A stretch of DNA of 34,267 nucleotides from IMG/VR virus record IMGVR_UViG_3300044646_000883, positions 1-34,267 of that record; one strand, given 5' to 3'. Shown here in pieces: positions 7,392 through 24,479 of the stretch (the stretch's first letter is position 1; every line of letters starts with the position of its first letter). The stretch comes from a virus. The notes beneath the pieces are model-generated. The model had not been told where the DNA came from. It saw only the letters and a list, made by a program, of their open reading frames with translations, and did no database searches. Position numbers and translations under genes: made by a program.

Positions 7392-7460
7392 CACTACCGG
7401 TTTTGTTCCTGTGCGTAGCGCTACCGCTACCGCTGCCACCGCCTGAATGAATAGGGCGGG

Positions 7461-7505
7461 GCGAACACTCGTTCGCTTGACTTTCGGCTCGCGGTCGGGC
7501 AGACT
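7461..7505 (+). promoter_or_regulatory. SOS-box (LexA-type) operator and promoter 1
   Basis: The palindrome GCGAAC-ACTC-GTTCGC (7461-7476) contains a perfect Gram-positive/actinobacterial LexA box, CGAAC-N4-GTTCG. It abuts a -35 box TTGACT (7477-7482), and 17 bp later comes CAGACT (7500-7505) as a weak -10. The next start is 47 nt beyond. A repressor on the palindrome would block RNA polymerase at the -35. Two more sites in the window share the palindrome arms, the TTGACT and the 17-bp spacing, which makes chance unlikely. The 69 bp before the palindrome hold CTACCG repeats and the perfect palindrome GTAGCGCTAC (7415-7424). Confidence 0.8.
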
Positions 7506-7552
7506 CGCAGTCGGCTCGGCGACCGCCCAGCCACAAGCACAAAGGAACAACC

Positions 7553-7864
7553 ATGAAACAAACCAGAACACGCAAGGCAACATCATTCACAGAGGCTCTC
7601 GCCGAAGTGAACACCAACAGTGCTCACAAGGGGCCTGGCTTCTACCGTCTACAGCAGGTCATTGACCGTCTGGATGACGCAGAGTCAGAGGCGTTCTTTG
7701 AGTTACTGTACGACAAGAACTATCCAGTTCGTCGTCTGTGGCTTGCGCTCAATGCCGTAGGCATCAAGGTTCACTACAACACGGTGTACCAGTGGGCGCA
7801 ACTCCACCGCAAGAAGCAACTCATCTTCCCGAACGGCAAGGTCATGAAGGGCAACCGCTCATGA
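7553..7864 (+). CDS. Putative helix-turn-helix protein
   Basis: A 103-residue, basic protein from ATG 7553 behind AAAGGA, the first gene after SOS-type promoter 1. Residues 57-83 (YPVRRLWLALNAVGIKVHYN then TVYQWAQ) look like a helix-turn-helix in which TVYQW is the recognition helix; the flanks are Arg/Lys-rich (MKQTRTRKA, HRKKQLIFPNGKVMKGNRS). It resembles the N-terminal HTH of small terminases or of phage regulators but no exact family is recognised. As leader of the operon it could be an autoregulator of the MoxR-VWA genes. Its stop overlaps the next start as ATGA. Confidence 0.72.
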   Translation: MKQTRTRKATSFTEALAEVNTNSAHKGPGFYRLQQVIDRLDDAESEAFFELLYDKNYPVRRLWLALNAVGIKVHYNTVYQWAQLHRKKQLIFPNGKVMKGNRS

Positions 7865-8550
7865 CCCAAGACGACAAGGACATCTTGGCAGAAGCAGCCA
7901 AGATAGTTGACGGTGTGTCCGAGCGCCTTCTGTCCGAAAGGGCAGAGGGCATTGGCACAGAGTTCCTCAAGTTGGAACAAGCCATGTGGAACCAGATGGG
8001 CAAGCCCGAAGGTACTCATTCCCTGTTCAGTGTCTGCCTTGTTGACGACAAGGACATTGAGGCAGTGTTTGAGGAGGTCAAGGCAACTCCAGAGCGCCTC
8101 GTGAAGGGCGAAGGAACCATTGACGGACAGAAGCCTGACTCAATGTTGGGCTTGTCCAAGGTGGCAGACGGTGGAGACATCTACGAGATGCTTGAGCACA
8201 AGATGCTCTCGCTACATCTGGCAGTGGATGACTCTGTTGTCGGTGTCCTTGCTCGCATGGACGCAACTGGCAGGCACCCAGATGAGGACGAGAAGCACGA
8301 GGTATGCGTCACCATGATGTTGCTGGCAGAAGCCATCTACGTCGGAGTGCGTAGGTACAACGAGCCAGACTCAGATGTGCTGTTCACAACCATTCACGCA
8401 AACGACTACGAGGCAGGACAGGACAGGCTTGTTGACGCAATGCTCTTGTTCTTCGCCATGCCTAAGGCAATGTACGCAGAGAAGCCAACAGTGATGAAGG
8501 CTCTCTACCAAGACCTCTTGGCTCAACAGGCCAAGAAGGACAAGCAATAA
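7861..8550 (+). CDS. Unknown 229-residue protein upstream of the MoxR ATPase
   Basis: Starts at ATG 7861 (ATGA overlap). It is acidic and helical, with no membrane segment or known catalytic motif. The first 20 residues (MTQDDKDILAEAAKIVDGVS) share 10 identities with the start of the protein at 10763, which is the same length and closes the operon; the rest shows no similarity I can see. The middle contains LGLSKVADGGDIYEMLEHKM and the end is a charged helix (DLLAQQAKKDKQ). Placement before the ATPase and VWA genes suggests a substrate adaptor or partner of that machine. Function unknown. Confidence 0.72.
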   Translation: MTQDDKDILAEAAKIVDGVSERLLSERAEGIGTEFLKLEQAMWNQMGKPEGTHSLFSVCLVDDKDIEAVFEEVKATPERLVKGEGTIDGQKPDSMLGLSKVADGGDIYEMLEHKMLSLHLAVDDSVVGVLARMDATGRHPDEDEKHEVCVTMMLLAEAIYVGVRRYNEPDSDVLFTTIHANDYEAGQDRLVDAMLLFFAMPKAMYAEKPTVMKALYQDLLAQQAKKDKQ

Positions 8551-8580
8551 ACAACAACAACAGTCCAAGGAGGACAAGCA

Positions 8581-9315
8581 ATGAACCAGCAAGAAACAAC
8601 ACCCATTGACCAACAGGAAGACCTGAGCGCTTGGCAGCGAGCAGAGTTCGCCATAGAACACTCCAACAGAGTGCTTCTGTACGGACTCCCCGGAACTGGC
8701 AAGACCTACTTCGGTCTGACCCATGGACTCACCGGCAAGCAGTCGTACAGACTGGCTTGTACCGAGGAGATGACCGAAGCAGACTTGATTGGCTTCTGGA
8801 GGCGTGAAGCCTCTGGCAACCTCAAGTGGCAAGAGGGCGTTGGAGTCAAGGCTTGGCGCGAAGGCGCAAGGCTCGTGGTGGACGAGGTCAATCGCATCAA
8901 CGGTGATGTTGAGAGCAAGTTGATGATGCTCTTGGACACCGAAGCAAGTGCCTCGTGGCAGAACCCAGACACCAACGAGGTGGTCAGACCAGCGTCTGGC
9001 TTCTCCGTTGTCGCAACCATGAACGGCATGCCCGAGGACTTGGCACCAGCCATCCTTGACCGCATGATTGTCCGTTGCGAGGTCAATGACCCGAACCCCA
9101 AGGCGCTTTCGGCTCTGCCCGAGTACCTCAGGGGTCTAGCCACAACCTTCACCAGCCAAGAGTCATCGTACAGATACTCCTTGCGCTCATTCGTGGAGTT
9201 CCACAGCATGTACGAGTCAAGCAAGAACCTTCGTGCTTGCGCTCAGGTGGTGTTCCCCGAGGTCGCAGAGTCCATCGTTGATGCTCTGGCAATCGCACAG
9301 GCTGAGGGGCGATAA
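8581..9315 (+). CDS. MoxR-type AAA+ ATPase
   Basis: A 244-residue ATPase with Walker A GLPGTGKT (residues 35-42), Walker B LVVDEVN (about 98-104), a sensor-1 region VVATMNG (about 143-149) and the conserved PEDLAPAILDRMIVR segment, which is the MoxR/AAA_5 pattern. Start ATG 8581 follows AAGGAGG. MoxR enzymes form hexameric rings that remodel proteins and usually act with a VWA-domain partner that docks substrates through its MIDAS. Such a partner is the next gene, joined by a TAATG overlap. The protein is short for the family, about the length of the AAA+ core with little C-terminal extension. Confidence 0.9.
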   Translation: MNQQETTPIDQQEDLSAWQRAEFAIEHSNRVLLYGLPGTGKTYFGLTHGLTGKQSYRLACTEEMTEADLIGFWRREASGNLKWQEGVGVKAWREGARLVVDEVNRINGDVESKLMMLLDTEASASWQNPDTNEVVRPASGFSVVATMNGMPEDLAPAILDRMIVRCEVNDPNPKALSALPEYLRGLATTFTSQESSYRYSLRSFVEFHSMYESSKNLRACAQVVFPEVAESIVDALAIAQAEGR

Positions 9316-10760
9316 TGCCAGAACCACGCAACAAGTTTGCGCCAGACGCCTTGCCACAACGCAAGGGTGCTAAGCACTCTCGCTTCGTGTCCACGGGCGC
9401 TCTGCCAACGACCCTAGACGGTGTACAAGTACACATGTCTCCAACGGAGAGAGAGCACATGTTCTCTGCCCCCGACGAGGAAGGACCAGAGTTCAGGCGG
9501 CTTCGTCGCTTCGGGCTTCTGCTCTCTCGCTACGGGCTAGTGGACAAGAACCGTTTCGTCAAGCGCAAAGGTCATGGTCACGACATTGTGACTCTGGCAG
9601 AGCGTGTTGTCGCAACATTTGCGTACAAGGAGGTGTTCGGAGGCGACCCCACCATCGGGGTAGCCAATGTACAACCGCTTGTGAACATGCTCAACAGTCC
9701 TAAGCCAAGTCATGGCGTGGTCTGTGCCTCTCTGGCATACTCTGGCACCAAGGCAGGTGAGGACATCGTCAATGGCATAACTGACGAGAATCTCAAGGCT
9801 GAGGTCAAGACTGCCATGGACAATGTTGCGGCTTGTGCTTCTCACTACGGTGACTCAATCATGCGTCACATCAACGGAAGCGACAGGTACAACACCATCA
9901 GAGCCAACAGGAACTATGACTACTTGTGCTCTCGCATCTCCTCTTGGGCTGACCGTGTGGAGGTCTCTTACGAGAGAGAGCATGAGCGCAAGCGCATGGA
10001 GCGACAGGCTGCCAAGCAGTCTCAGAGACGCAATGGCAAGGTCTCTACTGACCGTCGCACCGAGCAAGACATGTACGGACACAGGACAACGAGGCGTGGT
10101 AAGCCAACGCTTCGTGAGATTGTGCCAAGCATTGACGGCTGGGCGCATGCGCTGTTGGAGAAGATGCCACTGACCCTGCCACACACAGGGCGCAAGGGGC
10201 GCAAGTTGATACCCATGCCATACGGCAAGAGCATCAGGTTCATAGTCCGTGAGGACACAGACCCTGAGCAGAGGGTGTTCGCTCGCAAGACCCGAGCAAC
10301 AGGCGGCATCGTCGTTGTCGATTGTTCAGGCTCAATGTCCTTCAGTACAGAGGACCTTGACCGCATCATGGCAGCAACGGCAGGCGCAACCGTCTTGTGC
10401 TACTCGTCAGGTAACGAACCAGATGGCGCAAACATCTGGCTCGTAGCCAAAGGCGGCAGACGCACAAGCACCATGCCCCACTTCCCAGGCAACAACGGGG
10501 TAGATGGGCCAGCACTGGAGTACGGAGTCTCATTGCGCAGGCACAACGAGCCTGTCGTATGGATATCCGACACCAGAGTCACAGGCAAGATGGACTCAGC
10601 ATCCGAGTTCTTGCGTGACTGGTGCTTGGACTTCTGCGCCAAGAACAATGTCCACATCGTTGGCGACTCGCAGCGAGCAGCAACGCTCTTGCGCAAACTC
10701 CAACTAGGGCATACACCAGAAAGAACCAACTACAAAGCAATCAAGGGAAGGGGTTATTAG
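9315..10760 (+). CDS. VWA-domain (CobT/CoxE-like) partner of the MoxR ATPase
   Basis: A 481-residue protein starting at ATG 9315 (TAATG overlap with the ATPase). The C-terminal third is a von Willebrand A fold: VVVDCSGSM with the MIDAS triad start Asp336, Ser338 and Ser340, and later EPVVWISDTRVTG as the third-loop Asp strand. The middle (about 215-250) is a highly basic, probably coiled stretch (EREHERKRMERQAAKQSQRR). The N-terminal half is unassigned. VWA proteins of this type recruit substrates to MoxR ATPases through a metal-dependent adhesion site. The pairing is well known in bacteria and archaea but much less discussed in phages. Confidence 0.85.
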   Translation: MPEPRNKFAPDALPQRKGAKHSRFVSTGALPTTLDGVQVHMSPTEREHMFSAPDEEGPEFRRLRRFGLLLSRYGLVDKNRFVKRKGHGHDIVTLAERVVATFAYKEVFGGDPTIGVANVQPLVNMLNSPKPSHGVVCASLAYSGTKAGEDIVNGITDENLKAEVKTAMDNVAACASHYGDSIMRHINGSDRYNTIRANRNYDYLCSRISSWADRVEVSYEREHERKRMERQAAKQSQRRNGKVSTDRRTEQDMYGHRTTRRGKPTLREIVPSIDGWAHALLEKMPLTLPHTGRKGRKLIPMPYGKSIRFIVREDTDPEQRVFARKTRATGGIVVVDCSGSMSFSTEDLDRIMAATAGATVLCYSSGNEPDGANIWLVAKGGRRTSTMPHFPGNNGVDGPALEYGVSLRRHNEPVVWISDTRVTGKMDSASEFLRDWCLDFCAKNNVHIVGDSQRAATLLRKLQLGHTPERTNYKAIKGRGY

Positions 10761-10762
10761 CC

Positions 10763-11452
10763 ATGGAACAACCAGACAAAGACCTGATGGCAGAGGTGGA
10801 GAGCATCATCAACGGTGCCTCCAGCAGCATCATGGAGGACAGACGCATAGAGATGCTTGGCGCATTGGAGACAATCGCCAAGCGCTCTGAGTCAGAGTTC
10901 TCCTTTGACAAGGAACCATACGCCCTCATGCTGATAAAGCAAGTGGGCTTGGACCAAGTCGCAGATGACGCAGAAACCCACAGGGCGCCAGGCGCAGAGC
11001 ACTTGGACAAAGCACAACTAGAGGAGGCAGGATTTGGAGGGGCGCAAGTAACAGCACCCTTCACTGCTGACAGCCTTGCTGGTATGCGTGATGTCCTTGA
11101 CTCTCCTGCCAATCAGTTGCTCACAGACATCATGATGGGCAAACAGGATTGGGCTTCGGTCACAAGGCACAAGCAGAACGGAGCAGTTGTGTACATCATG
11201 ATTGCCGGTGGCTGCGTGTCCACATGGACCAAGACACCTTCAGGCGAAGTGATAACAAGCCACACGGACACAAGGGCAGAGTCCATTGACCAAGTCCTCA
11301 AGTCCGTATGTGGCGAGTGCCACGACATCCTGAAGAGCCAATGGGGCTTCACCTCAAGCATCCAAGTGCTCAGGAACAACTACCCCAACTCCTATGCCGA
11401 ACTGGCTAAGGAGATGGAGCGCAAGTTGGAGGAGCAGGGTGATGAGGAGTGA
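10763..11452 (+). CDS. Unknown 229-residue protein downstream of the VWA gene
   Basis: Starts at ATG 10763, two bases after the VWA stop; a farther upstream in-frame start would lie inside the VWA gene. The N-terminus MEQPDKDLMAEVESIINGAS matches the start of the protein at 7861 at 10 of 20 positions. The centre has a beta-rich run with VVYIMIAGGCVSTWTKTPSG and an EVITSHTDTRAESIDQVL helix, and a charged helical end. Two Cys (VCGECHD) form CxxC near residue 190. Same length and neighbourhood as the other 229-residue protein, so possibly paired partners of the MoxR-VWA machine. No family recognised. Confidence 0.72.
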   Translation: MEQPDKDLMAEVESIINGASSSIMEDRRIEMLGALETIAKRSESEFSFDKEPYALMLIKQVGLDQVADDAETHRAPGAEHLDKAQLEEAGFGGAQVTAPFTADSLAGMRDVLDSPANQLLTDIMMGKQDWASVTRHKQNGAVVYIMIAGGCVSTWTKTPSGEVITSHTDTRAESIDQVLKSVCGECHDILKSQWGFTSSIQVLRNNYPNSYAELAKEMERKLEEQGDEE

Positions 11453-11594
11453 ACCAAGTGCCTTCGTTATTGGCACTCTTATTGTCCTTGGCGACAGGGC
11501 AGCGAGCACCTCAGGTGCTGGACTGTACTGGCGTGTCGCTGTCGTTTCAGCGTTGATACTCGGGTATCTGTACGCAAGGAACAGCGCCAAGTGA
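11442..11594 (+). CDS. Small membrane protein closing the MoxR-VWA operon
   Basis: A 50-residue frame from ATG 11442, preceded by GGAGGAGCAGGG and overlapping the previous gene by 11 bases. It starts MRSEPSAFVIGTLIVLGD and has two short hydrophobic segments (about 7-16 and 28-43, WRVAVVSALILGYLYA) with a polar turn between, then a basic end (RNSAK). A competing frame from GTG 11449 is only 35 codons and less protein-like. If real, it could anchor the operon's products at the membrane. Confidence 0.52.
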   Translation: MRSEPSAFVIGTLIVLGDRAASTSGAGLYWRVAVVSALILGYLYARNSAK

Positions 11595-11598
11595 CTAG

Positions 11599-11662
11599 GT
11601 GGGGGCTACGGGTAGGCAGCAAACTGTTGCTCAACCTCCTGAAACCTGCTCGTAGCCCTCAC
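11599..11662 (+). terminator. Long stem-loop after the MoxR-VWA operon
   Basis: Arms GTGGGGGCTACG (11599-11610) and CGTAGCCCTCAC (11651-11662) pair over 12 bp with one G-T wobble. Within the 40-nt loop, GCAG/CTGC (11616-11619 with 11646-11649) or the smaller AGCAA/TTGCT hairpin (11618-11622 with 11627-11631) can also form. There is no U-tract, so it may be a non-canonical terminator or an RNA-processing structure at the end of the operon. It lies just before the second SOS-type promoter. Confidence 0.45.
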
Positions 11663-11696
11663 GACTTGCCACAAACGCCACGCAACCAGCCACAAT

Positions 11697-11764
11697 CGCT
11701 ACCGATGTCGCTCGGCAATACGCACATGCGCGAGGCAGCGGGGCGAACAGCCGTTCGCTTGACT
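11697..11764 (+). repeat. Promoter-region repeat, copy A
   Basis: The 32-bp block 11697-11728 (CGCTACCGATGTCGC... ending AATACGCACATG) is nearly identical to 12158-12189, and both are followed by a GCGAAC-N4-GTTCGC palindrome and TTGACT. The block and operator were evidently duplicated together with the downstream gene. Only a CGCTACCG remnant is shared by the first promoter (7419-7426). Confidence 0.75.
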
Positions 11765-11787
11765 CGTCGGCGAGGCTGCCCTACGCT
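11743..11787 (+). promoter_or_regulatory. SOS-box (LexA-type) operator and promoter 2
   Basis: Palindrome GCGAAC-AGCC-GTTCGC (11743-11758), directly followed by -35 TTGACT (11759-11764), a 17-bp spacer and -10 TACGCT (11782-11787), which fits the actinobacterial TAnnnT rule. The predicted transcript starts near 11794, and the gene's ATG lies 47 nt after the -10, the same distance as at promoter 1. The operator core is the LexA box CGAAC-N4-GTTCG. Confidence 0.85.
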
Positions 11788-11834
11788 GGGCTTCGTTGGC
11801 AACCGCCAGCACAACAGTTCCAAGGAGGAACATC

Positions 11835-12116
11835 ATGAACAAGCAAGACCAGCAGGCACTTCAGGACTTGGAGACCGCCAAGAAGCGGATGCTTCGTGGC
11901 ACTTGGACTAGTCCAGATACCACACCCAAGAAGACCAACTGGTTCATCCAGTGCCACAACAGCCAAGTGGCAGGGCAGCCTGAGGCAGGGCGCATCGTCT
12001 TCGTGACGAAGTCACGGGGAGCGTTCCAAGTGGTGGAACTGGTGGAGAAGCAGGCAGACAGCACCGACAAGAACGGGCTGGCTGTCTCTCTCTGGAGTGC
12101 CAAGGTTCTTGCCTAG
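11835..12116 (+). CDS. SPDT-motif small protein, cassette A paralogue
   Basis: A 93-residue protein from ATG 11835, with AAGGAGG at 11822-11828. After an N-terminal helix (MNKQDQQALQDLETAKKRML) comes a compact beta-rich domain, RGTWTSPDTTPKK, GRIVFVTKSRGAFQVVEL and TDKNGLAVSLWSAKV. A gapless hand alignment of 73 residues with the protein at 12309 gives 33 identities, so the two are paralogues. There are no catalytic or membrane motifs. It has its own SOS-type promoter and its own terminator, so it forms a self-contained expression cassette. Function unknown; a nucleic-acid or protein-binding beta-barrel is a guess. Confidence 0.8.
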   Translation: MNKQDQQALQDLETAKKRMLRGTWTSPDTTPKKTNWFIQCHNSQVAGQPEAGRIVFVTKSRGAFQVVELVEKQADSTDKNGLAVSLWSAKVLA

Positions 12117-12126
12117 CAGGAACAAC

Positions 12127-12156
12127 GGGGGAGGGCGCAAGCCCTCCCCCCTTCTT
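12127..12156 (+). terminator. Rho-independent terminator of cassette A
   Basis: A perfect 10-bp stem GGGGGAGGGC/GCCCTCCCCC (12127-12136 with 12141-12150) closed by a GCAA (GNRA) tetraloop, followed by CTTCTT. It begins 10 nt after the stop of the cassette A gene and precedes the promoter of cassette B. Confidence 0.85.
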
Positions 12157-12157
12157 G

Positions 12158-12231
12158 CGCTACCGATGCCGCGCGCGAATACGCACATGAGCATGCGCCA
12201 TGAGGCAGGGCGAACATCTGTTCGCTTGACT
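12158..12231 (+). repeat. Promoter-region repeat, copy B
   Basis: The 32-bp block 12158-12189 (CGCTACCGATGCCGC... ending AATACGCACATG) matches 11697-11728 with only a few differences. It is followed, after a slightly longer gap (20 rather than 14 bp), by the same palindrome arms and TTGACT. This extends the paralogy of the two cassettes into their control regions. Confidence 0.75.
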
Positions 12232-12254
12232 CTCGGCTCGGGGTGCCGTAAGGT
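12210..12254 (+). promoter_or_regulatory. SOS-box (LexA-type) operator and promoter 3
   Basis: Palindrome GCGAAC-ATCT-GTTCGC (12210-12225), then -35 TTGACT (12226-12231), 17 bp, and -10 TAAGGT (12249-12254), the best -10 of the three. The start codon of the downstream gene is 54 nt past the -10. Arms, -35 and spacing are identical to promoters 1 and 2, while the four central bases of the palindrome vary, as expected for a LexA-type site. Confidence 0.87.
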
Positions 12255-12308
12255 GGTTCTCGTCGAGGGCACGGTGCCCGAGACAAGGGGTCAAGGAGGC
12301 CCTTACCA

Positions 12309-12640: not shown

Positions 12641-13043
12641 GCCCTCTCTCATGCTCGAGGTGACCGGGGGTGTGCCGCTACCGTTGGGGGGTGGGGGGTC
12701 AATATACCCGTTCTCTCTATAGAGCCATTTCTCAGCCCAAGCCAAAGGTTCAGATTGACATTTTGGCTACTGCTTCGCATTGAAGGGTGGGCTGGTAGCA
12801 AACGGTCTTAGCCCCCCCAAGTTCTGTTTTACGCCTGAACCCGTCTGTCTCAATACCGAAAGAAGGCGACCACCATCGGTCCCCTTTTCAGGCCACTCAT
12901 CGCGTGCGGTCTAGCCATGCTGCCCCAGCAGATGATTCTTGCTGGGAGGAATGTAACCGTTTAGCGTCCGTATTTTTTCTGGTTGTGGCGAACACCTTAG
13001 CAGCCGTGTCAAGTATCCACAACCTCTGTGCTACTGTTTCTGC
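12641..13043 (+). other. Non-coding switch region before the virion block
   Basis: About 400 bp with no convincing gene. It holds G-runs (12666-12670, 12686-12691 and 12693-12698), a CTCTATAGAG palindrome (12715-12724), a TTGACA (12755-12760) with only CATTGA at the 17-bp position, a CCCAGCA/TGCTGGG hairpin (12924-12930 with 12940-12946), and the -10-like TGTGCTACTGT at its end. It separates early from late genes and lies two genes before the terminase, so it is a candidate for late promoters or a packaging/end site. None of that is proven by sequence alone. Confidence 0.5.
13027..13037 (+). promoter_or_regulatory. Late-type promoter -10 (TGTGnTAnnGT), leaderless start
   Basis: TGTGCTACTGT contains the -10 TACTGT (13032-13037) with an extended upstream TGTG. 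The GTG start at 13044 follows only 6 nt later, so transcription would begin at or next to the start codon, giving a leaderless mRNA as is common in Actinobacteria. No convincing -35 box is seen. The same 11-bp pattern recurs at 15900-15910 and 29141-29151. Confidence 0.55.
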
Positions 13044-18978: not shown

Positions 18979-19353
18979 ATGGCAAATCGTTTTGACCTGC
19001 AGAACCCGGCGGCAAAGATTGCAAAGTCAGCCGCAAAGGGACAAACCTACGGCAAGGCCACAGAGCAGATGGCAAGCCAGTCGGCAGTGCCAATGGGTCC
19101 TTCACCTTCGGATGTTTCGGCTGGCCGCACAGCACGTCAGTCAGCAAAACTCACCTCAATTGGCGCACCTACGCAGCGCCCAGACGAACCAATTACTGCT
19201 GGCGCCAATTTTGGACCAGGTCCAAACATGTTCCAGGCTGGAATCCCGATGGTTTCGCAGACCAACATGGCGTTGGAAGAACTGCGGGCCATCGCAATGG
19301 CATTCCCAAACGACGACCTGGATGATTTGCTGTCCCGCTACGGGATTGGCTGA
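18979..19353 (+). CDS. Small probable virion protein after the portal
   Basis: A 124-residue protein. The first 85 residues are low in hydrophobics and rich in Ala, Ser, Gln and Pro (NPAAKIAKSAAKGQTYGKA), probably disordered. The C-terminus, NMALEELRAIAMAFPNDDLD then DLLSRYGIG, is a short helix pair. Its stop overlaps the following giant gene's start (19353). A long disordered arm plus short folded end is typical of small head or internal proteins, but no family is recognised. Confidence 0.7.
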   Translation: MANRFDLQNPAAKIAKSAAKGQTYGKATEQMASQSAVPMGPSPSDVSAGRTARQSAKLTSIGAPTQRPDEPITAGANFGPGPNMFQAGIPMVSQTNMALEELRAIAMAFPNDDLDDLLSRYGIG

Positions 19354-22300
19354 TGCTTTACAACAACCTTTTCCCCGAGGACCGGGAGTACCTGCTGAGT
19401 TTGCAGCAGGACATGAACACTGCCCAGTACCAGTTCAGCCCTCAGTACTCGCAGTCCATGGCAATGAAGTTGAATCAAATCAACTATCGCGCACCATGGC
19501 TGTCGCCAGAGGTACAACTCTCGCTTGCCAAGGCAGGCGCCAGTGCGGCAGCAATCGACGAAGTTGGCAGGATGGCCCAACAGCGCGAACTCGATTCGTT
19601 TGAACAGAGAAGAGATGCAGTTGGCAATCTTCCAACACCTGTCCGCGCCGTATTCGACGGCCTGAGTTTTGCCAAGCGCATTGCTTCAAAGACATTCCAG
19701 TTGGCGATTCCAGCGCCAGCAGAAGCCATTGCTGGTGGCATTACCAATCTTGTCGGCCCAGTAGCAAGTGCGGCGGCGCGTCCAGCCAAGTGGGCATCGC
19801 GTTGGTCGCTTGCTGCTTTGATGAGCGTTCCGGAATACGCCAACACGGTACTCGGACAGATGTGGACCGGGGCTGGTCTTGACATTCCAGGAATGATGTC
19901 AGCAAGCACATTCCAAACCATGCTCGACAATCCCGAAGAGCAGGGAGTTGGCTGGCTGCCCAACGCACAAATCGTGGAAGAACAGGCGGCACGCGCACGC
20001 GCAACTCGCGGCACCATCTACGGTTCTGCATTTACCCTGGGCCGCGGAGTCATGTCGGCTGGCGGAATCTTCCGCGAAGAAGACATGGCCTATCGCTATG
20101 GCTCGGGCGTAATCGACGCAATCTTCAACATTGTGCTGCCCGACCCCTCGAAGTACATTGCCAAGGGACTACGCACCGCCGAGTACGCAGCAGTGGCGAT
20201 GAAGACCGGCGAAGCAATCGAAGTACTCCGAAAGGCCGGTACGCCATCGGCGGGATTGAAGGGCATTGTTCCGCTTCTCAGCGCAGAAGATGCCAAGTCC
20301 TTGCGCAGCGCACTTGGCCCCACGAAGCAAAAGATGCTCCGAGAAGCAGGACTCGGCATTGACTTTTCTGGCGCAACTTACAACGCACTCGAGTTCAACA
20401 ACTTCTTCCGCAGCAACCCATACGCAAAGAAACTTGTTGAAACTCTGCAAAACACAGACGACGCTGGCACCATCTGGGAAGACATCTTCGACGGCAAGAT
20501 AACCACCGACATGGCGCTGCGCCTGAAGAATGCCAAGACAGAGGACCAGGTCATTTCGGCATTGACCAGCGGCTGGACCTACGGCGACCGCACACTGCAG
20601 GCCGGAATCGGAACCTACAAATACGAGCGCAATCTCGTCGGCAACAGCATTCGCAAGATGCGCGCATTCCAGCAGGTCCCAACCGAACAAATCGTGGTGT
20701 CTGGCGGAGACGTTGACAACCAGGAATCAATCCTGAACTTGACCCGCTCCTTGCGTGCAGGCGGCGCATCAGACGCAGAAATCAAGACGTTCCTTTCGGG
20801 CGACGAAAAGACAATCGGCGCACTCGAGGCTTTCTCCAAGTCGCCTCGCGCAACCCCAACAGCCAGAAAGAATGTCCTCAATACCTACAAGCGCTACCTG
20901 AAGACCTATTTGCGCTCTTCTGGCGTACACGACCAGATGATTGAGGAAGTACTTAGCGGCGGAGAAATGACCATCGACGCGATGCGCTCGTACTTCCGCA
21001 GCCGCACGGGCGTTGAAACGGACAACGGTCTGATTCGCGCACTCTATGAACAGGTCAAGGACAGACTCGACCCCGACTTCGTGAACGAAGTGTTGGATGG
21101 GGCTGGCTTCACCAAGCGCGACATTCAGTTGCTGCAGCCAGCGCAACTTGTCGACTTGTTGAACCGAGTCCAAATCCTTCCGGATACACGTGTCATTCGC
21201 CGTCTTACCCGCGGTTCATTGTTCCGCAAATTGCTGTCGGACAGCGAGGGCAAGCAACTTATTCCCAAGTTGCCCATCACGAGCCGCATGCCATGGCGCA
21301 CAGTTGATGTCGTGCCCAAGGCACTGCGTCAGGAGTACGACGAAATCAACGATGAAATCCGCAGACTTGAGCAGTTGAAGGGTCCGGCACGACAGGCAGC
21401 CTCGGAGCGAATCGACGAACTAAAAGACCGTGCGGTCAGCATGACCGAACAGAAGCGCAGGCCAGTGCTAACCGGCGAGCAGCGCCTTTCTTTGGCATTT
21501 GCCGAACTCCTACAGCAGCGAGTTTGGAAGGTCGCGCAGTTGGCGACTGGTGGATATGTAGTTCGCAACATGCTTGACGCACAGGTCCGCATGGCTGCCG
21601 GTGGCATCAATCAGTTCAAGCACCCAATTGACTACATCAATGCGGTGATTGGCAAGCGCTACGGCAAGACGATTACCGGTGTCGATGTCACCGACCTTGG
21701 AGTGTCGGCAGGCAAGCGAGCCCTCGAAGAGGGCGCCGAAGCCGCCGAAGCCGGTGTGCGGTCGAAGTACTGGGAGCGCAGCAGGCAAGAAGATGTCTAC
21801 GAAGACTTGCGCGAGGCCTTCGTTGGTGCTTCTTCACGCTTCGGTTGGAGCGCCAGCGACAGCGTCAGGCACCGTTACAAGTCCGGGTCATTCACCCTGG
21901 TTACTAGGGCAAGCGGGCCAAAACGTTATCTGTCGCGTTACCACACAGACGGAGTCATCCAGTCCGCCCAGAAGACACTCACGGACGAGTTCCAGTCCCG
22001 CGCTGCAGTCGCACTCAGTGCCGGAAAGACAGATGAGCAAGTTGTAGATGAACTCATAAAGTTCATGGACAACGAGAGGACGCATGCGTTTAGAAGTGTA
22101 GACGCTCTCTTCTCTGATGGCATTGAGTTCTACGACAGGACAAAAGACGCACCATTCAAGTTCCCACCCCTGTCCATAAAGCAGTTGAAGAAGGACGACC
22201 CAGAGTTCTATCGCTCGATTCTTGATGCGTACTTCCGCCACATCGTCATCGACAACGTCAGGTACAACACCGGAAACCTTGATGACGTCTTGTTTCTCTT

Positions 22301-24479
22301 TGCCCATAATGCTGTTGGCAATCTTGACGACACCAGGATTCTCAGAGTTGACGACTTCAAGTTGAAGCCCAAAGAAAAGGTCAAAGTGGGCCAAAGGCGC
22401 ACGGTTGAAATTGCCGGTGAGAAAGTCTCTGGCATTGTTCGCAGGATTGAGGGCGACGAGTACACCTTTGTGCCCATCGCCGTGGACAACGCGGCAACTG
22501 CGGGCAAGAACGGTCTGGGTGCTAAGGAGGCACGCCGACTCATTGAGCGCGCCAAACTGTACGACGAAACCACCAAGAAGGGTCTTGCCGTCTCATACCC
22601 GCGCGAGCAAATGATTACCTACCGTCCTGGCGGAAAGTTCGATTCACTCGAGCAGCGAACCATGGACGCAATGGACAAGTTGACCAACTGGTTCTTTGAC
22701 GGCTTTTACGATACGGCTTCACGCACGCTGGAGAAGTCGGTTGTGTTCCGCCAGTTCTACTACGACGAAGTGGTCAAGCACATCGACCAGTTGTCGTACG
22801 AAGAGGGCATGAAGTTGTACGCCGAAATCTACGAAAAGTCCAAGGGCGACATTCGCAAATACTTTGGCGAAAGCAAGTTGCGACAGAAGGTCACAAAGGC
22901 GATTGAGGACCTGCCAAATCGCAAGGGCGCCAAGGGCACTCTTACCGTCGAGGAACTCGACGACTACTCGCGCTTTGTTGGAATCCACAACACCAAAGAA
23001 CTTCTGTACGACGCATCGTCACGCAACAATTTCCAAGACGCATTGCGTGTGGTGGCTCCGTTCGAAGCGGCATGGCGAGACGTACTTGGTCGTTACGCAA
23101 GTTTCGCCGTCACCGACAACATCCACATGTATCGCCAGTTCCACAAGGTGTATCACGGCCTGTCGCAGGCTGACCCGGACATGGATGGTCGTGGCTTCAT
23201 CTATCGCGACCCCAACACAGGCGAACCAATGTTCACGTTCCCCATGTCGGGGACCATTGCCAAACTGTTCACCGGCACCGACTCGCCCTTGAGCGCACCG
23301 CTGGCTCGTTTGTCTCAGGGCATCAGTTTCTATCCAGCGCTGGGACCAATGGCAAGTTTCTCGGTTTCACAACTCCTGCCAGATGTGCCCAAGTACGACA
23401 AGTTGAAAGAACTTCTGCTTCCGTACGGCGAGGTTGGCTTCCTTGACGCAATCAACGTCACGCCATCCTGGCTGCAAAAGACCGCACCCGCAATCGCTGG
23501 CATGTTCACAAACCAGGTCTACATGAACACCGTGTACGGCAACACCTATATGGAGACCTTGCGTGCTTTGTCGGTCAACACCGAGAAGTACAACCTGAGC
23601 ACCGAAGAGGGCGTGACCCAGTTGATGGCAGATGCCAGGACGCGCGCTCAGATTCTTACCCTTATGCGCGCCCTCGGTCAGTTCACGGGACCAGCAGCCC
23701 CAATCGTTGAGTTCAAGGTTCCGACTAAAAAGGGTGACAAGTTCGTTGACGAACTGATGAAGGAACTGCGCACCTTTGAGCAGGAGGACTACGACAGCGC
23801 AGTCGACAAGTTCCTGGGGCTGTACGGAGACGAGTTGGTTCTTTACCTGGGCTCCAAGAGCCGAGCCGTTGCCCAGGGTCTTGAGGCCACCGAAGAGTTC
23901 GGCGTCTGGGAGCGCGAGAACAGGGACCTAATCAACCAGTTCCCTGACACCGCCTACTTCATGGCTCCGCGCGGCGGAGGCGACTTCAGTTTCAGCGTTT
24001 GGGAACGGCAGTTGATTGAGGGCAAGCGTGAGCGCTTGACCGACCGCGAGATGATTGACCTGGCACAGAACCGCTTGGGCGCCGTCAAGTACCGAGCCGC
24101 TCGCCGCATGTTTGGACCGAATCCAAACGAACTGCAGCGCAATGCCCTGCGCAACTACCGCGACTACCTCAACGCCAAACTGCCCGGTTTCCCACGCCGA
24201 GCCCAGTTCGAGGCAAACAAACTGCAGAACGACATCGACCAGTTGTACAGGCTGGCAGATGACCCACGTCTCGACGGCAACGCAATCGCGGCTTCGGTTC
24301 GCGAATACTTGCGCGTGAGAATACAGGTCATGCAGTCCAATGACCTGATTAGTTTCCAGTCCAAAAAGGCCGCTACGGCAAGACAGCAACTTTACCAGTT
24401 GGGTGAGTCGCTCTCGTCCGCGAACCCTGAGTTTGATAGAATCTGGCAGCGTTTCTTGGTGCAGGAAGTGGATTTGTAA
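19353..24479 (+). CDS. Giant virion protein (1708 residues)
   Basis: The largest gene here, starting at ATG 19353 (TGATG overlap). The product is mainly helical with charged repeats of acidic and Arg/Lys residues. A hydrophobic Ala/Gly-rich region lies near residues 110-170 (PAEAIAGGITNLVGPVASAA). Around residue 725-750 is WKVAQLATGGYVVRNMLDAQ, and around 1225 VVAPFEAAWRDVLGRYA, patterns I recall from very large structural proteins of actinophages. No protease, polymerase or lysozyme motif is obvious. Position between portal and scaffold, rather than after the tail tube, suggests an internal or ejected protein rather than a tape measure. Function is not established. Confidence 0.72.
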   Translation: MLYNNLFPEDREYLLSLQQDMNTAQYQFSPQYSQSMAMKLNQINYRAPWLSPEVQLSLAKAGASAAAIDEVGRMAQQRELDSFEQRRDAVGNLPTPVRAVFDGLSFAKRIASKTFQLAIPAPAEAIAGGITNLVGPVASAAARPAKWASRWSLAALMSVPEYANTVLGQMWTGAGLDIPGMMSASTFQTMLDNPEEQGVGWLPNAQIVEEQAARARATRGTIYGSAFTLGRGVMSAGGIFREEDMAYRYGSGVIDAIFNIVLPDPSKYIAKGLRTAEYAAVAMKTGEAIEVLRKAGTPSAGLKGIVPLLSAEDAKSLRSALGPTKQKMLREAGLGIDFSGATYNALEFNNFFRSNPYAKKLVETLQNTDDAGTIWEDIFDGKITTDMALRLKNAKTEDQVISALTSGWTYGDRTLQAGIGTYKYERNLVGNSIRKMRAFQQVPTEQIVVSGGDVDNQESILNLTRSLRAGGASDAEIKTFLSGDEKTIGALEAFSKSPRATPTARKNVLNTYKRYLKTYLRSSGVHDQMIEEVLSGGEMTIDAMRSYFRSRTGVETDNGLIRALYEQVKDRLDPDFVNEVLDGAGFTKRDIQLLQPAQLVDLLNRVQILPDTRVIRRLTRGSLFRKLLSDSEGKQLIPKLPITSRMPWRTVDVVPKALRQEYDEINDEIRRLEQLKGPARQAASERIDELKDRAVSMTEQKRRPVLTGEQRLSLAFAELLQQRVWKVAQLATGGYVVRNMLDAQVRMAAGGINQFKHPIDYINAVIGKRYGKTITGVDVTDLGVSAGKRALEEGAEAAEAGVRSKYWERSRQEDVYEDLREAFVGASSRFGWSASDSVRHRYKSGSFTLVTRASGPKRYLSRYHTDGVIQSAQKTLTDEFQSRAAVALSAGKTDEQVVDELIKFMDNERTHAFRSVDALFSDGIEFYDRTKDAPFKFPPLSIKQLKKDDPEFYRSILDAYFRHIVIDNVRYNTGNLDDVLFLFAHNAVGNLDDTRILRVDDFKLKPKEKVKVGQRRTVEIAGEKVSGIVRRIEGDEYTFVPIAVDNAATAGKNGLGAKEARRLIERAKLYDETTKKGLAVSYPREQMITYRPGGKFDSLEQRTMDAMDKLTNWFFDGFYDTASRTLEKSVVFRQFYYDEVVKHIDQLSYEEGMKLYAEIYEKSKGDIRKYFGESKLRQKVTKAIEDLPNRKGAKGTLTVEELDDYSRFVGIHNTKELLYDASSRNNFQDALRVVAPFEAAWRDVLGRYASFAVTDNIHMYRQFHKVYHGLSQADPDMDGRGFIYRDPNTGEPMFTFPMSGTIAKLFTGTDSPLSAPLARLSQGISFYPALGPMASFSVSQLLPDVPKYDKLKELLLPYGEVGFLDAINVTPSWLQKTAPAIAGMFTNQVYMNTVYGNTYMETLRALSVNTEKYNLSTEEGVTQLMADARTRAQILTLMRALGQFTGPAAPIVEFKVPTKKGDKFVDELMKELRTFEQEDYDSAVDKFLGLYGDELVLYLGSKSRAVAQGLEATEEFGVWERENRDLINQFPDTAYFMAPRGGGDFSFSVWERQLIEGKRERLTDREMIDLAQNRLGAVKYRAARRMFGPNPNELQRNALRNYRDYLNAKLPGFPRRAQFEANKLQNDIDQLYRLADDPRLDGNAIAASVREYLRVRIQVMQSNDLISFQSKKAATARQQLYQLGESLSSANPEFDRIWQRFLVQEVDL

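Follow-up and report, generated by a model that had tools for sequence, protein, structure and literature searches.

Binding sites for host regulators are known at the promoters of several phages. In the Bacillus phage GIL01, gp6, a truncated LexA homologue, activates promoter P3, its binding site having its centre at −43.5 (PMC6182141). Several unrelated phages already use host LexA, and host CtrA sites in phages of Alphaproteobacteria and Spo0A sites in phi29 are instances of lytic deferment (PMC9437464). Here, we examine an uncultured phage with predicted LexA-type operators directly before the −35 elements of three promoters. ‘The window’ denotes the whole stretch of its DNA that was analysed (an IMG/VR virus record of 34,267 nucleotides), to which coordinates refer unless a relative is named; the three boxes, their promoter cores, the genes from A1 to P2, and the iterons at 7419–7432 lie on the plus strand.

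Three boxes and their promoters

The pattern GCGAACNNNNGTTCGC occurs in the window only at 7461–7476 (box 1, GCGAAC-ACTC-GTTCGC), 11743–11758 (box 2, GCGAAC-AGCC-GTTCGC), and 12210–12225 (box 3, GCGAAC-ATCT-GTTCGC), as located by pattern search and by the matrix described below. The preliminary description had placed these palindromes immediately before TTGACT, with different four-base centres between invariant arms; an exact pattern search agrees on both points, and the inner palindrome CGAAC-N4-GTTCG is perfect at all three sites. About 0.03 occurrences of GCGAAC-N4-GTTCGC are expected per 34 kb, and shuffled sequences yield 0.02 of CGAAC-R-NN-Y-GTTCG (three in the window), so that a chance origin of the three boxes is ruled out. 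When three mismatches are tolerated, the 19 matches found show no excess over the 23 expected by chance, and the signal therefore resides in the perfect sites. The earlier claim that no further copies exist also holds: the search returned only near-matches at 23221 and 28178, both within genes, the latter having a centre that violates the R position.

Each box adjoins a promoter core predicted from sequence, namely TTGACT-17-CAGACT (7477–7505), TTGACT-17-TACGCT (11759–11787), and TTGACT-17-TAAGGT (12226–12254), and the 17-bp distance to the −10 element that had been reported is seen at all three. Two of the −10 hexamers (TACGCT at 11782 and TAAGGT at 12249) match TANNNT, and the first (CAGACT at 7500) matches only xANNNT. 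If the start sites are as assumed, every box has its centre near −43.5 and so precedes the −35 element.

Box 1 lies upstream of the operon A1-A2-MoxR-VWA-A5 (7553–11452). Its first gene, A1 (7553–7864), encodes a helical, helix-turn-helix-like protein of 103 aa, which in a fold search bears a weak likeness to DNA-binding folds (Z up to 3.6) that is no evidence of function. A2 (7861–8550) and the last gene, A5 (10763–11452), each encode 229 aa with no assigned function. Between them are genes for a MoxR-type AAA+ ATPase (8581–9315; AAA_5, 1.8e-19; phrog_16448), which has only distant CobS-like matches among phage records, and a VWA-type protein with a DCSGSM motif (9315–10760; phrog_33218, 1.5e-93), for which a search among phage records gave no match. 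Boxes 2 and 3 lie upstream of P1 (11835–12116; 93 aa, small and beta-barrel-like) and P2 (12309–12587; 92 aa, model pLDDT 91), respectively, paralogues that are 40% identical; P2 is weakly HerA barrel-like in a fold search (E 0.12), again no evidence of function. The window also has terminase, portal-like, and major head genes, and its relatives measure 36–40 kb. A 1708-aa protein without a PHROG match is encoded at 19353–24479, between the portal and head genes.

Other non-coding elements accompany these promoters. GCTACC iterons (CGCTACCG; seven copies, 0.6 expected) lie upstream of promoter 1 (7419–7432), and promoters 2 and 3 are each preceded by a single CGCTACCG, at 11697 and 12158, respectively; the recorded window positions are 7419, 7425, 11697, 12158, and 12676, and the iterons are also present in the relatives L031, L042, and L079. 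Across the family, they lie 40–80 bp upstream of promoters, with the LexA-type box present or absent. By eye, a small hairpin, GGGCAC...GTGCCC, opens the leaders (12255–12285 in the window, and in several relatives too). A conserved non-coding stretch, CCGCTACCGT ... CAATATACCCG ... CTCTATAGAG, follows the P2 terminator (12660–12740) and likewise occurs in G001–G004, including relatives without LexA-type boxes.

Correspondence with actinobacterial LexA sites

Relatives of the major head protein (about 45% identity) are Streptomyces phages, from which an actinobacterial host is likely. We compared the boxes with those of Actinomycetota, collecting lexA genes and taking the best box upstream of each. 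A box was present in 61 of 63 loci, perfect in 33, with the consensus CGAAC-R-N-N-Y-GTTYG. The scoring matrix represents 60 boxes upstream of actinobacterial lexA; scoring of this kind had been proposed in the preliminary description. The window sites score 22.1, 21.3, and 19.1, against a median of 20.0 for the real boxes, and rank as the top three 14-mers of the whole window.

Because the arms in the matrix were picked by likeness to the consensus, only the centre is fully independent evidence. The R-N-N-Y rule, derived from the 61 lexA boxes and not part of the search pattern, is obeyed by all 23 distinct sites of the phage family (14 of 14 distinct centres; 24% by chance). The sole degenerate arm seen, GTTTG in L006 and L017, is a variant present in 18 of the 61 lexA boxes. 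The phage boxes also agree with the LexA motif of Streptomyces venezuelae, tCGAAC-N4-GNNCGa (PMC9380542). Matrix and centre rule thus concur with the original assignment of CGAAC-N4-GTTCG to the LexA type, and the palindromes are very likely LexA-type operators.

Conservation, loss, and replacement among relatives

Relatives were retrieved by protein similarity, not by box pattern, and the three orthologous promoters have boxes there too; G000, G001, G002, and G014 have three boxes each, all at promoters (about 0.03 expected). The longer pattern GCGAACN4GTTCGCTTGAC has 18 matches in IMG/VR, all but about two from the phage family of the window, and 21 matches in 257 Gb of cellular genomes, scattered over unrelated phyla at about chance level. 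The core in relatives is CGAAC-N4-GTTCG, and since the outer G/C pair varies (C...C, G...T), the invariant unit is the 14-mer. In G014 and L078, the same kind of TTGAC core is found both with and without a box, as for an operator that would be an add-on to the core.

The distribution of the box within the family is patchy. Recurrence in related phages, to which the preliminary description had looked, stands for the same three promoters of several relatives and fails for G003 and G004, which have no box at any of the three; box control must therefore be dispensable or replaceable. In a MoxR tree, these box-less phages (L120 and L097) are nested among box-bearing ones, and boxes are also found in L036/L101/L048, L053, L074/L075, and L137/L078. 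In the promoters of G003 and G004, TTGAC is 7 nt, not 17, from TANNNT, and that all three promoters change jointly suggests a changed controlling factor or host. The N7 form spans several lineages, some of them with a perfect GC-rich hairpin adjoining TTGAC, and is seen at orthologous promoters of box-less relatives in L031 (6576, 10703, 11153), L042 (9000–13700), and L036 (8465, 13010).

LexA-type boxes were also encountered in two other virus contigs. In L089 (69.5 kb; positions 1–1200), arrays of them alternate with GTGAC-N5-GTCAC (CRP-like) palindromes and contain TTATCCACA repeats (DnaA-box-like) as well, all upstream of small genes. L014, an AT-rich and unrelated contig, has two on the minus strand near 9450, one adjoining TTGAC and the other near a −10 element.

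Candidate binding proteins and alternative readings

The preliminary description had named host LexA, or a phage mimic of it, as co-repressor of the three units. The mimic was not found: searches for LexA_DNA_bind and S24 domains gave no match in 20 family records, several of them fragmentary, with controls matching as they should, and an HMM of actinobacterial LexA domains had no match in the phage family. No phage-encoded LexA or S24 repressor thus emerged from the domain searches or the LexA-domain HMM, although these could overlook a small phage protein related to LexA if it has diverged. Nor was any gene common to G000, G001, G002, and G014 yet absent from the box-less complete genomes. 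This leaves host LexA as the leading candidate, and it is likely that it would bind the predicted operators. The co-repression claim is thus supported in part, by the LexA-type box, by the failure of these searches to find a LexA or S24 homologue in the phage family, and by the boxes at the corresponding promoters of relatives.

We think it probable that the boxes are LexA-type operators placed before the −35 elements, through which host LexA would repress the three units until damage or infection. Three elements of this reading are inferred: that the binding protein is LexA of the host, that control is negative, and that it is lifted by infection or damage; repression until DNA damage is likely. 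The three palindromes would act as SOS operators of host-type promoters, placed directly before the −35. As long as the cell is undamaged, LexA of the host would most likely sit on the boxes, hinder RNA polymerase at the −35, and keep expression of the A1-A2-MoxR-VWA-A5 operon and of both P-cassettes low; damage, or infection itself, would activate RecA and so lead to LexA self-cleavage and the joint release of all three units.

Three other readings were weighed. A phage-encoded regulator with no recognisable likeness to LexA might occupy the palindromes and set when the three units act in the course of infection, but this seems unlikely. The joint gain or loss of the box at all three promoters (G003 and G004 versus their neighbours) looks as if one trans-acting factor changes, and A1, helix-turn-helix-like and first in the operon, would be a candidate; however, A1 was rejected as the cognate factor, being the first operon gene also where the operon promoter has no box and missing from the operon start in the box-bearing L006, L008, and L017. 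No other gene tracks the box, and the centres obey the rule seen in LexA boxes.

Promoter geometry bears on the next reading, in which the box would serve class II activation by a LexA-family protein, be it the LexA of the host or a diverged homologue encoded by the phage. The phage box precedes the −35 and so does not follow the host SOS layout, in which the box lies at or after it: among 171 box occurrences in 63 host-lineage lexA loci, none shows a box followed by TTGAC and 27 show a −35 followed by a box, and in two SOS-type promoters that the pattern search located in Acidimicrobiaceae-like MAGs, the box fills the 17-nt spacer from TTGTCA to TACATT or TATATT. With the usual start assumed, the −43.5 centre at all three promoters is also the position of gp6 at GIL01 P3 (PMC6182141). 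A box at or after the −35 belongs to the customary promoter arrangement and is no property of LexA binding as such. Against strict activation, the box elsewhere in the family lies about 39 nt before the −10 in G005, L038, and L048 and 14 nt before it in L053, with centres, counted on the sequences, near −58.5 (G005) and −33.5 (L053), and it occurs in tandem in G014 and L074; such placements are repressor-like. The −35 hexamers, moreover, are near consensus and would need little help, and LexA-domain searches, which may miss a diverged protein, found nothing like gp6. We consider class II activation distinctly improbable, and find it improbable too that a LexA-type activator or two-way timer at that position lets an apparently integrase-less tailed phage read host DNA damage and so delay or advance its MoxR-VWA programme.

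Finally, it is very improbable that the palindrome is an intrinsic promoter part or DNA hairpin without a LexA-type binder: unrelated GC-rich hairpins do adjoin TTGAC in G005, L038, L041, L085, and L092, but the sequence and centre rule of the palindrome match LexA boxes, G014 and L078 retain the same kind of core without it, and G005, L038, and L048 have the box next to the hairpin and not instead of it.

Lifestyle and significance

Searches of 20 family records, possibly incomplete, found no tyrosine integrase, serine recombinase, or ParA; the family may be virulent. A TerL search of 84,980 GTDB genomes found no prophage or binned relatives. A PF00940 search for a phage RNA polymerase gave no match, but it matched no control genome either and so carries no weight.

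It would seem that the phage couples operons of its own to the SOS alarm of its host. Uncultured, apparently integrase-less phages would thereby tie a MoxR-VWA operon of unknown function to host SOS state, as the boxes suggest, and these offer a handle on the timing of MoxR-VWA gene action. That close relatives have gained or lost all their sites together makes for a natural experiment, in which the same genes stand behind promoters with and without boxes.

Comparison with known systems

The actinobacterial LexA regulon (Streptomyces, mycobacteria) shares the CGAAC-N4-GTTCG box and the R-N-N-Y centre with the phage; in the regulon promoters examined, the box comes after the −35, inside the spacer, whereas the phage box comes before it. 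As in lytic deferment phages, sites for a host regulator stand at the promoters of a few uncharacterised genes and have been gained repeatedly. Those phages respond to other regulators and signals, and CtrA binding and regulation are experimental findings, whereas LexA binding and regulation are predicted here from sequence. If the family is virulent, its LexA control would be nearer to lytic deferment of the CtrA kind (PMC9437464) than to a lysogenic switch.

Bacillus phage GIL01 (Betatectivirus; P1, P3, gp7, gp6) likewise has host LexA boxes in its promoters, in places in tandem as here; it has no dedicated phage repressor, and none was found in the 20 family records searched. GIL01, however, is temperate, a linear plasmid-phage of 15 kb with a Firmicute host, whereas the present phages form a tailed family probably infecting Actinobacteria, in which gp6 and gp7 were not found and a MoxR-VWA operon is present; the LexA boxes of P3 are downstream of the −35, and those described here are upstream. 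Co-option of host LexA by phages is thus already known, and what is new is the phage family and the unusual position of the box.
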